Origin: Sporomusa sp.
Lineage (GTDB): Bacteria > Bacillota_C > Negativicutes > Sporomusales > Sporomusaceae
Length of the DNA: 17,728 nt
Reading direction: 5' to 3'
NCBI GenBank assembly: GCA_029256645.1
Contig: JAQSXM010000014.1
Span: 1 to 17,728 of the forward strand
Part shown: positions 4,513-17,261 of the stretch, one piece after another
How positions within the stretch are numbered: position 1 is the stretch's first letter
How the letters are laid out: every line of letters begins with the position of its first letter
The notes under the pieces: generated by a model
The model's input: the letters and a program-made list of their open reading frames with translations, nothing else
What the model was told of the DNA's origin: nothing
Databases searched by the model: none
Made by a program: the position numbers and the translations under genes

Positions 4513-4558
4513 GACTTAGCTTCAGATGGGGGGTTAAAACCCCAGCTGAAGCTAAGTC
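4513..4558. repeat. 46-bp hairpin with 13-bp perfect arms
   Basis: GACTTAGCTTCAG (4513-4525) and CTGAAGCTAAGTC (4546-4558) are exact reverse complements. Inside, GGGGTT (4530-4535) and AACCCC (4538-4543) pair again, so nearly the whole element folds. No T run follows in either direction. In 4396-4808, which has no supported forward gene, this and the preceding hairpin are the main structures; 4580-4808 is AT-rich leader and promoter sequence. Confidence 0.6.
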
Positions 4559-14935: not shown

Positions 14936-15781
14936 ATGGTGAAACGGAAGTGGTTGCGGGACTATTTAGGCATTGTGCTGGGCACGGTTATCACCGCGCT
15001 GGCACTAAATATCTTCTTAATTCCTAACAAAGTTGCAGCCGGTGGCACTAGCGGTCTGGCCACTGTACTTCACCATATTTTCGGGTTGCCGGTAGGGATG
15101 ACCATGCTGGCGCTTGATATTCCCATGTTTTTGATTAGTGTTAAGGTTTTGGGCGCCCGTTTTGGTGTGAACACGCTGCTTGGCGCCGGGATATTGGCGG
15201 CAAGCATTGATTTAACTGCCCCGTTTGTGCCGGTTTTAACCCGCGATTTACTGCTGAATTCGATCTATGGCGGTGTGCTTGCCGGGGTTGGGATGGGCAT
15301 TGTCTTTAAATTTAAAGGTACAACGGCAGGCACTGATCTGGCGGCAGCTCTCATTAATAAACTGACAGGTATTAGCCTGGGGCAGGCGCTGTTAGGCGTT
15401 GATTTCTTTGTTATTGCCTTAGCAGGCGTTGCGTTTGGCAGCGCTGAATTGTCATTATACGCACTTATTTCTTTATTTGTCACTACCCAGATTATTGATC
15501 TGGTACAGGAGGGCCCCAGTGCCGCCAAAGCCTTTTTTATTATGTCACATTCATCAGATGCGGTGGCTGATGCTATTATGGCTGAGCTTGGCCGGGGGGT
15601 AACCCTGCTGGCCGGACGCGGTGCCTATACCAAGGCTGAGCGTGATGTCGTATTCTGTGTGGTCAGTACCAGGGAGGTTTCGCATCTCAAAGACCTGGTC
15701 TACCGGATTGACCGTGAGGCGTTTGTTATTGTGGCTGATGCTCACGAAGTACTCGGCGAAGGCTTCTCTTCCCCCCGCTGA
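14936..15781 (+). CDS. YitT family membrane protein
   Basis: This 281-residue protein has an N-terminal block of about five membrane helices (the YitT/DUF161 part). It opens with the typical GTVITALALNIFLIPNKVAAGGTSGLATVL and later shows FKFKGTTAGTDL. A soluble C-terminal DUF2179 domain of about 80 residues ends in DREAFVIVADAHEVLGEGF. The biochemical role of the family is unsettled; export or transport is assumed. AGGAGG precedes the ATG by 5 bases (a GTG at 14939 is an alternative). It lies 58 bases after csaB and probably belongs to the same transcript. Its TGA stop lies inside the first large palindrome. Confidence 0.93.
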   Translation: MVKRKWLRDYLGIVLGTVITALALNIFLIPNKVAAGGTSGLATVLHHIFGLPVGMTMLALDIPMFLISVKVLGARFGVNTLLGAGILAASIDLTAPFVPVLTRDLLLNSIYGGVLAGVGMGIVFKFKGTTAGTDLAAALINKLTGISLGQALLGVDFFVIALAGVAFGSAELSLYALISLFVTTQIIDLVQEGPSAAKAFFIMSHSSDAVADAIMAELGRGVTLLAGRGAYTKAERDVVFCVVSTREVSHLKDLVYRIDREAFVIVADAHEVLGEGFSSPR

Positions 15782-15903
15782 AACGGGCGATAAACGCCCA
15801 CCTGCTTCGTTGCTCCTCAGAACGATTGCTTGCGTACGGAGGTACGCGGCGCTGCACGTTCTTCCGGTGCGCCTCGCATCTGGGCATTTCTCGCCCGTTT
15901 CAG
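15778..15903. repeat. 126-bp imperfect palindrome, copy 1
   Basis: The ends CTGAAACGGGCGA (15778-15790) and TCGCCCGTTTCAG (15891-15903) are exact reverse complements. The arms stay similar inward (AACGCCCACCTGC at 15793-15805 against GCATCTGGGCATT at 15876-15888). The centre is GCGTAC-GGAG-GTACGC. It has no open frame of its own. Its reverse complement aligns with the element at 17139-17261 over about 95 bases, so it belongs to a repeated family. In 15782-16262, which has no supported gene, the contents are this element, a short plain spacer (15904-15957) and the tandem array. Confidence 0.85.
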
Positions 15904-15957
15904 GCCTTAGGCATTTTAGTTGCTTTAATGCAATTGTCGATAGAGTTTTGAGTTATG

Positions 15958-16223
15958 GCTCGTCCAGATTGCTGGACATCGGGAGTTGGGTGACGCTCGT
16001 CCAGATTGCTGGATATTGGGAGTTGGGTGACGGCTCGTCCAGATTGGCTGGACATCGGGAGTTAGGGGACGACTCGTCCAGATTGGCTGGACATTGGGAG
16101 TTGGTGACGCTCGTCCAGATTGGCTGGACATCGGGAGTTGGGTGACGCTCGTCCAGATTGGCTGGACATTGGGAGTTGGGTACGGCTCGTCCAGCTTTGG
16201 ATGGACATTGGGTTATGTGAGAC
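15958..16223. repeat. Tandem array, seven copies of a 37-39-bp hairpin unit
   Basis: Units begin at 15958, 15995, 16033, 16072, 16109, 16147 and 16185. Each reads roughly GCTCGTCCAGATTGG, then CTGGACATYGGGAGTTGGG, then TGAC. Within each unit GTCCAG and CTGGAC form a 6-bp hairpin with a 4-5-base loop. Unit 2 keeps pairing by a G-U pair, and the diverged unit 7 keeps GTCCA/TGGAC. Unit length is not a multiple of three and there are no variable spacers, so it is neither a coding repeat nor a CRISPR array. It ends about 40 bases before the transketolase start codon. Confidence 0.92.
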
Positions 16224-16262
16224 GCTTAATTTAGATAAAGACTATGGGGGGTTTTTGAAAGT

Positions 16263-17102
16263 ATGGTAAAGAAGTTGACATCAGAACAGCTCCATGAGCT
16301 GGCCGGCCGGGCTAAGTCGATCAGGCGCAATATTGTGAGCATGGTTACTGAAGCTAAATCGGGCCATCCAGGCGGTTCATTGTCTGCTGCCGATATTCTT
16401 TCAGTATTGTATTTTGCTGAAATGAATGTTGAGCCTGCTAAGGCGAAGGATGCTGACCGCGACCGTTTTGTACTGTCGAAGGGGCATGCGGCCCCGGTGC
16501 TGTATGCTACGCTTGCTGAAAAAGGGTATCTGCCTGTGGAAGAGCTGCTTACTTTGCGTAAGGTTAACAGCCGTCTGCAGGGCCACCCTGAGATGAAGGC
16601 TATCCCGGGTGTTGATATGTCGACCGGTTCTTTGGGACAAGGTCTGAGTGCTGCTAACGGGATGGCGCTGGCTGCTAAGATTGATGCCAGGGACTACCGG
16701 GTATATGCCCTGCTTGGTGACGGGGAGCTGGAGGAAGGCCAGATCTGGGAGGCAGCAATGTTTGCTGCTCATTACAAACTGGACAACCTTACCGCCTTTG
16801 TAGACTTTAACGGCCTGCAGATTGACGGCCCTGTTGCTGAGGTTATGTCACCGCTGCCGATTCCGGAGAAGTGGCAGGCTTTTGGCTGGAATGTGCTTAT
16901 CATTGACGGCCATGACTTCAATGCCATCTATGATGCCATTCAGACAGCCAAGACAGTAAAAGACAAACCAACCATGATTGTAGCCAAAACCATCAAAGGC
17001 AAAGGCGTCTGCAAAATGGAAAATGTCGCCGACTGGCATGGCAAAGCCCCCAGCCGGGAAGAATGCCAATTATTTTTAGCTAATATAGACGAAATGGATT
17101 AA
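16263..17102 (+). CDS. Transketolase, N-terminal (TPP-binding) subunit
   Basis: This 279-residue protein is the thiamine-diphosphate-binding half of a split transketolase, which moves two-carbon units between sugar phosphates in the non-oxidative pentose phosphate pathway. Visible are the substrate and cofactor loops SGHPGGSLSAADIL and SKGHAAPVLYA, GHPEMKAIPGVDMSTGSLGQGLS, and the TPP motif starting GDGELEEGQIWEAA with the DFNGLQ(I)DG end. The length is normal for the separate N-terminal subunit of anaerobic Firmicutes and archaea. The ATG has a G-rich stretch 11 bases upstream, a rather distant ribosome site. The C-terminal partner follows after 182 bases instead of the usual tight spacing, because a palindromic element lies between. 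Confidence 0.95.
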   Translation: MVKKLTSEQLHELAGRAKSIRRNIVSMVTEAKSGHPGGSLSAADILSVLYFAEMNVEPAKAKDADRDRFVLSKGHAAPVLYATLAEKGYLPVEELLTLRKVNSRLQGHPEMKAIPGVDMSTGSLGQGLSAANGMALAAKIDARDYRVYALLGDGELEEGQIWEAAMFAAHYKLDNLTAFVDFNGLQIDGPVAEVMSPLPIPEKWQAFGWNVLIIDGHDFNAIYDAIQTAKTVKDKPTMIVAKTIKGKGVCKMENVADWHGKAPSREECQLFLANIDEMD

Positions 17103-17138: not shown

Positions 17139-17261
17139 GATGCTGGTTATGAATGCCCAGATGCTAGGCGCGACGAGAACCGTAGCGGAGGCGTACGCGG
17201 GAGTACGTTGAGCAACGGATCGCAGGAGTAACGACGCAGATGGGCGTTCAGAACCGGCATC
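17139..17261. repeat. 123-bp imperfect palindrome, copy 2
   Basis: The ends GATGCTGGTT (17139-17148) and AACCGGCATC (17252-17261) pair with one wobble. Further in, AATGCCCAGATGC (17152-17164) faces GCAGATGGGCGTT (17236-17248). The interior shares AGGCGC, GCGTAC, GTACG, AGCAA and AGGAG segments in the same order as the reverse complement of copy 1. It separates the two transketolase genes and leaves 23 bases for the ribosome site of the second. Confidence 0.85.

Follow-up and report, generated by a model that had tools for sequence, protein, structure and literature searches.

Tandem hairpins between yitT and tkt in a Sporomusa-like bacterium: probable amplification from the end of a dispersed PATE-like element

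Related repeat systems

Repeats of the MIRU/VNTR type are intergenic units arranged head-to-tail in variable copy number. The array described here resembles them in all these respects; it differs in that its unit is proposed to come from the end of a mobile element and in that its stems carry compensatory changes between species. The dispersed element from which the array probably derives is best compared with the palindrome-associated transposable elements (PATEs) of Haloquadratum walsbyi. According to the accessible part of the PATE paper (PMC3119063), the two share the lack of terminal inverted repeats, near-terminal palindromes, a length too short for a transposase, the lack of target duplication (in our case at the resolved sites), presence or absence between relatives, and short deletion derivatives. 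The Sporomusa element, however, belongs to a different domain of life, has a different sequence and carries three hairpins. PATE palindromes are related to an IS605-type transposon, whereas one of 50 Y1 transposase loci in the Sporomusa genomes has a copy beside it, and that copy is 5′-truncated. Tandem amplification of an end hairpin, as proposed here at tkt, is not among the PATE features described in that part of the source.

Enzymes of the IS200/IS605 family bind subterminal hairpins; a guide lies on the 5′ side of the hairpin foot, and the left end is flanked by a target (accessible part of PMC6006769). REP/BIME/REPIN repeats, associated with RAYT transposases, are a further comparison (PMC3733652 and PMC6006769, accessible parts; see also PMC3116915 and PMC8266576): like them, the Sporomusa element forms dispersed, multicopy hairpins whose stem is preceded on the 5′ side by a short tag; REP copies can also be tandem or clustered (PMC3733652), and Y1 transposase genes occur in the same genomes as the Sporomusa element. 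Unlike REP, it has CTCG instead of a conserved GTAG or CGTC tag (CGTC arises only if the stem itself begins with GTC), its full unit comprises 113 nt with three hairpins, and it lies near a Y1 gene at one of 50 loci. The words Firmicutes, Clostridi- and Sporomusa are absent from the accessible part of PMC3733652. Open-access literature searches returned nothing on Sporomusa intergenic tandem repeats or Sporomusa REP, and, for IS200, REP, non-autonomous or miniature repeats in Negativicutes or Sporomusa, the element is absent from the titles and abstract openings of the best 8 of 28 and 6 of 20 matches.

The array and its hairpins

The window, by which we mean the whole stretch of 17,728 nt analysed, carries genes for a polysaccharide pyruvyl transferase, YitT and a split transketolase. 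Between yitT and the split transketolase gene, an array of seven tandem units of 37-39 nt, each with a hairpin of the GTCCAG/CTGGAC type, occupies positions 15958-16223 (Table 1), as the earlier note had described. The string TCGTCCAG starts seven times (15960, 15997, 16035, 16074, 16111, 16149 and 16187; spacings 37, 38, 39, 37, 38 and 38). Tandem Repeats Finder reports it as the sole array in the window (15957-16212, period 38, 6.7 copies, 89% matches), and the pattern GTCCAG-N4-6-CTGGAC has five matches in the window versus none in 200 dinucleotide shuffles.

Table 1. Features at and around the array (R1 is a model built from tkt units)
Feature	Position	Strand	Remarks
yitT (YitT_membrane + DUF2179), upstream of array	14936..15781	+	domain search
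Dispersed REP-like palindromic repeat, separate from array	15778..15904	.	28-nt arms, 86% complementary
Proposed remnant of mobile element 5′ end (AGTTATGGCTCG; AGTGAACTCG in dispersed copies)	15951..15962	+	proposed by eye, without statistical match
Unit 1	15958..15994	+	GTCCAG-ATTG-CTGGAC; R1 match
Unit 2	15995..16031	+	GTCCAG-ATTG-CTGGAT, closing pair G-U; R1 match
Unit 3	16033..16070	+	R1 match
Unit 4	16072..16108	+	placed by unit-start positions; absent from R1 match list
Unit 5	16109..16146	+	R1 match
Unit 6	16147..16183	+	R1 match
Unit 7, degenerate	16185..16223	+	GTCCA-GCTTTGGA-TGGAC; R1 match
Promoter-like TGGACA-17-CTTAAT, overlaps unit 7	16202..16230	+	weak, 9/12
TTTAGATAAA, proposed remnant of element 3′ side with ATAAA target	16230..16239	+	by eye
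Transketolase N-terminal subunit gene (tkt)	16263..17102	+	Transketolase_N, E 5.4e-64
Second, diverged REP-like repeat copy, opposite orientation, between the two transketolase genes	17150..17250	.	extent by eye

The units are contiguous and alike along their whole length without being identical to each other, and no unique spacers separate them, which agrees with the earlier statement that this is not a CRISPR. Nor is it likely to be a coding repeat, another point on which the earlier reading holds, since spacings of 37-39 nt do not hold one frame from unit to unit, and a stop interrupts the array in five of the six reading frames. The exception, a 90-aa antisense frame (15953-16225, stop to stop), is open through the whole array and would yield no repeated peptide. 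A 174-aa sense frame (15621-16145) overlaps yitT and enters the array; we treat both frames as spurious. The absence of a known riboswitch is likewise upheld, with no Rfam match in the window at gathering score or in 15780-16300 at E<=5. Exact matches to the unit core in a collection of genome contigs fell in five stretches of unrelated taxa, one match each, and a looser core matched nine stretches of viral contigs, again singly; being single and scattered, these were taken as chance. A stricter promoter scan listed a sole site, on the minus strand (15940-15913), and did not list the promoter-like site of unit 7.

As for the neighbouring genes, the YitT protein has 92% identity to a protein of Sporomusa termitida. 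A search of viral contigs gave one distant relative of tkt (31% identity) and none of YitT, and blastn matched 11 plasmid and 7 phage records, all at 60-80% identity; in the annotated records the matches lie over transketolase, except for one plasmid row labelled none.

On the sense strand, a lower stem CTC/GAG is found below the hairpin. GGA/GAG motifs made binding by CsrA or TRAP a candidate reading. The stretch 15957-16223 folds at -106.2 kcal/mol in sense versus -67.4 kcal/mol in antisense, and the sense fold of 15940-16265 beats 100 shuffles (z -3.36). Units folded singly are unexceptional against shuffles (z -0.37 to -1.64), and in the minimum-energy fold of the complete stretch some of the pairing joins one unit to another. 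Of the chain of seven hairpins once proposed for the RNA, the structured character therefore stands, whereas a clean seven-hairpin chain does not appear.

The earlier note had further claimed that base changes in units 2 and 7 keep the pairing, implying selection on structure. We found no two-sided pair change inside the window: unit 2 has a one-sided change from G-C to G-U, and unit 7 loses the sixth pair and keeps its lower stem only via G-U. It is between species that compensatory changes occur, within a constant CTCG...ACATYG frame. Stems read GTCCAG/CTGGAC in the window, GTCTGC/GCAGAC and GTCCGC/GCGGAC in genome G514 (inferred S. termitida), where one unit has a stem mismatch, and GTTTCAG/CTGAAAC in other species; the bases before the stem, including its first base, are CTCG in 14 of 15 tkt-type units and CTTG in one.

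In an alignment of these 15 units, which leaves out the partial second units of loci L037 and L041 and has eight relatives' rows typed in from the locus sequences, 97.8% of cells are paired and four of six pairs show two-sided changes. Because the window units are not independent, the count was repeated with fewer of them (two window units, three from G514, one each from G550 and G570; the second alignment was made from references only), giving 95.2% paired and again four of six pairs. In both sets, three measures are reached by none of 500 shuffles: the share of paired cells, the count of cells with changes on both sides, and the covariation score. Two others are unremarkable: as many pairs with a two-sided change arise in 291/500 and 135/500 shuffles (15-unit and reduced sets, respectively), and as many pair types in 499/500 and 316/500. 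When the unit alignments are slid by one to three columns, 25-45% of cells are paired. Pairing is thus kept between species, outside the units that the earlier note had singled out, and selection is not established by it, because template switching can also keep hairpins paired (PMC8794818, accessible part).

A dispersed three-hairpin element

The tkt unit matches the first hairpin of a repeat of about 113 nt with three hairpins, dispersed in Sporomusa genomes. The element runs from a left end AGTGAACTCG through hairpins H1, H2 and H3 to a right end AAG next to ATAAA. By eye, neither of its ends, AGTGAACTCG... and ...AAGATAAA, is an inverted copy of the other, so that terminal inverted repeats are lacking; H1 (nt 10-28) and H3 (nt 71-86 of 113) are near-terminal palindromes. 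A genome search for other copies of the unit, advised in the earlier note, proved productive: R1 matches 11 of 11 genomes at E<=1, with 78 matches in G578, 32 in G558, 22 in G574, 21 in G542, 18 in G485, 8 in G474, 4 in G514 and 2 each in G538, G550, G570 and G493 (the G493 pair weak, best E 0.05), counts for which 150 candidates were scored per genome, which include the tkt copies and in which matches near E 1 may be chance.

Among 81 element loci, a set in which L066 is a tkt copy and some entries repeat a place already listed or are segmental duplicates, 67 span 95 nt or more of the element and 14 are shorter, being cut or internally deleted (e.g., L065, L134, L146 and L171). In G485, a second subfamily (L176-L182) shares the left end but has a longer H3 and other stem sequences, which still pair. 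The consensus copies of the two subfamilies, 113 and 117 nt, are too short for a transposase gene, and DNA folds of one copy per subfamily gave z -6.4 and -7.9. Across 29 diverse copies, 95.0% of cells are paired over 29 pairs, in an alignment where H1 of the second subfamily is out of register, which lowers the score; nine pairs show two-sided changes, a number reached by 3 of 500 shuffles, and the pair types are not above shuffles (221/500 reach them). With R2, a model of the complete element, matches at E<=1e-3 were obtained in 37 of 300 genomes from the class (12 candidates were scored per genome, so that a count of 12 means at least 12, and the weakest matches may be chance). No Rfam match was obtained at gathering score in 18 element loci, and seven sub-threshold matches were all that the short loci L127 and L178 gave.

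The flanks of seven element copies were joined and searched in ten genomes, resolving empty sites for three of them. L085 is present in G578 and missing from G558 and G542; L086 is present in G558 and, judged by a gap and an R1 match, in G578, and missing from G542 and G574; L077 is present in G542 and missing from G578. No target duplication was seen at these three sites. ATAAA stands at the junction in three of the five empty alleles, one per site (G558, G542 and G578), and the two others, more diverged, read AAATAG (G542) and GTAAAC (G574). At L076 the relatives diverge at the junction and the boundary is unreadable; L092, L074 and L083 gave no resolved junction. On the 3′ side of 78 of the 81 copies (L066, L073 and L087 set aside), a regular expression found ATAAA in 45 of 59 anchored copies, a count that we do not take as proof because the pattern itself required AT; the 5′ flank shows no strong motif over 78 copies. 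ATAAA is likely, without being proven, to be a fixed target of the element.

Y1 transposase genes are present in nine of nine genomes searched, many as frames of about 250-290 aa. We examined 50 Y1 loci, corresponding to about 52 of 79 Y1 matches, and found the element near one of them: at L101 (G542, contig C6), a 5′-truncated copy (1934-2052) lies beside a 255-aa Y1 (RAYT-like) frame. A RAYT as parent looked possible at this locus, but 49 of the 50 loci lack the element and no parent transposase was found among them; the adjacency at L101 may be chance.

The REP-like repeat upstream of the array is a separate family. The yitT stop codon TGA sits in its first arm, and it was matched in 11 of 11 genomes of Sporomusa and relatives (1-16 matches each at E<=1e-5, some partial). 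Elsewhere, at L071 (G570, contig C52, about 27.4-27.7 kb), a REP-like repeat is followed by H1-type units and then a gene start, the same make-up as at tkt, where the gene looks by eye like argG (argininosuccinate synthase). At L070 (G538, contig C16), a REP-like repeat adjoins a degenerate three-hairpin element.

Origin and present role of the tkt units

A genus search with G514 yielded nine genomes, all of which were examined; G493 (probably S. carbonis) and G485 (probably Methylomusa anaerophila) stand outside this count. Six of the nine have units of the CTCG-hairpin-ACATYG frame between yitT and tkt: three units in G514, one each in G550, G570 and G574, and one plus a partial or weak second in G542 (second by eye) and G578 (second at E 0.33). 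They were not found at tkt in G538, G474 or G558, nor in G493 or G485. The comparison of copy number proposed in the earlier note thus gives 0-3 units in nine same-genus genomes versus seven in the window. An element specific to tkt is not supported, given the dispersal of the unit and its absence from tkt in three of the nine genomes, in one of which the whole spacer is missing: in G558 (L039), the REP-like repeat and the units are both gone, with 22 nt from the yitT stop to the tkt ATG.

In a protein tree of the pyruvyl transferase, YitT and transketolase, the window groups with G514 (0.996), L039 is sister of L041 (G578), and the unit-bearing genomes fall in two groups. The simplest reading is an ancestral insertion with later losses at tkt, on a tree in which one inner split is weak (0.554).

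The tkt copy of L041 reads AGTGAACTCGTTTCAG...CTGAAACATTGTGGATT, followed by a second, weaker hairpin and then GGGGATTAACCCCGCCTAGATAAA; both element ends are present, and H2 and most of H3 are missing. R2 matches the tkt spacer, with inner parts of the element missing, in five of the 12 sources given, L041 (2.5e-7), L037, L057, L035 and L038 (1.5e-4), and at E<=1 gives no match at tkt in L034, L036, L039, L040, L042, L033 or the window, where its sole match is weak, partial and outside the tkt spacer (at 4519). BLAST aligns nt 1-38 of the element at L037 and L041 and nt 1-32 at L035 and L057, with 91-95% identity, and at E<=1e-2 gives no hit for the window, L033 or L038. The case for linking the window and L033 to the element rests on R1, which was built partly from their own units, on position, on TTTAGATAAA, which also occurs at the tkt locus of L033 (AGATAAA is seen by eye in L035 and L041 too), and on a resemblance by eye of the spacers, GGGAGTTGGGTGACGGCTCG in the window and GGATTACGACGGACTAG in L041.

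Taking this together, we consider it probable that the array arose when the end hairpin of an old and decayed non-autonomous PATE-like insertion was amplified in tandem. The element would have been mobilised by a Y1 (HUH) transposase acting on single-stranded DNA, like PATEs and the ends of IS200/IS605. Because they share the place and the H1 frame, the units of the window and S. termitida would descend from the insertion seen at tkt in relatives. H2 and H3 would then have been deleted, and ACTCG-like sequence near both element ends may have allowed head-to-tail duplication, giving two units early and, later, three in S. termitida and seven in the window.

Against this derivation, one may suppose a plain minisatellite unrelated to the dispersed element, or an assembly artefact. 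The varying unit number between genomes, the lack of an R2 match at the window array and the fact that the array is known from one assembly all fit such a reading; the units, however, differ from one another, with unit 7 degenerate, and at the corresponding position other genomes have related units that carry element-like ends, so that we find such a reading quite improbable. Less credible still is the idea that a DNA-binding regulator of tkt uses the dyads as a row of operators, close to the dyad sites for a multimeric protein raised in the earlier note. Seven near-identical dyads near a promoter-like site would suit it, but the dyad centre varies in the window from 4 nt (units 1-2) to 5 nt (units 3-6) and 8 nt (unit 7), and from 2 to 7 nt in relatives (six-pair register), which fits a fixed-spacing dimeric site poorly and led us to judge a row of dimeric operators unlikely; the arms also differ between species, and the hairpin is dispersed elsewhere. 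We hold this reading to be very improbable.

The remaining readings concern what keeps the stems paired. Template-switch (quasipalindrome) mutation can restore or keep hairpin pairing and so mimic compensatory change (PMC8794818, accessible part); if it did so here, the array would be neutral, which is compatible with derivation from a PATE-like insertion. In its favour, several stem bases differ together between lineages and the array is gained and lost between genomes, yet this process by itself would not keep the unpaired CTCG and ACATYG frame; we regard it as plausible, a little short of evenly balanced. An exapted leader RNA, in which a hairpin chain in a yitT-tkt transcript tunes tkt expression or mRNA stability, would account for stems that diverge while pairing and the frame stay, even among the three L033 units and with spacers diverging. 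The advantage of the sense fold (-106 vs -67 kcal/mol; z -3.36 against 100 shuffles) agrees with it, and co-transcription is plausible given the 22 nt left between the two genes in L039. On the other hand, that advantage comes partly from G/U richness, many shuffles fold as well as the individual units do (z -0.4 to -1.6), the nine same-genus genomes carry 0-3 units, with none in three and the spacer lost in L039, the sister of L041, and the array may sit outside the main tkt mRNA in view of the weak promoter-like site in unit 7. A leader RNA is, in our estimate, doubtful. A broader proposal joins two claims: that the 113-nt element would be an undescribed structured family in Sporomusa and some other members of its class, and that its end hairpin was captured at tkt, became immobile, was amplified and is kept as a tunable chain whose copy number (0-7) sets tkt output. 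As a joint reading we rate it unlikely.

We therefore return to the amplified end hairpin of a decayed insertion, most likely a passive relic rather than a functional element at tkt. Its units are probably passive now, appearing as hairpins in RNA if yitT and tkt are co-transcribed; the frame kept after the loss of mobility could reflect a later function.

What appeared to be a regulator of tkt acquires a traceable history of one insertion, loss of parts, tandem amplification and independent loss. Following it brings to light a family of dispersed elements with strong structure, for which the tested loci gave no Rfam match at curated thresholds. A further lesson is that a regulatory RNA cannot be concluded from compensatory changes in tandem hairpins alone. 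Were exaptation true, these genomes would offer a natural copy-number series (0-7) of leader hairpins.
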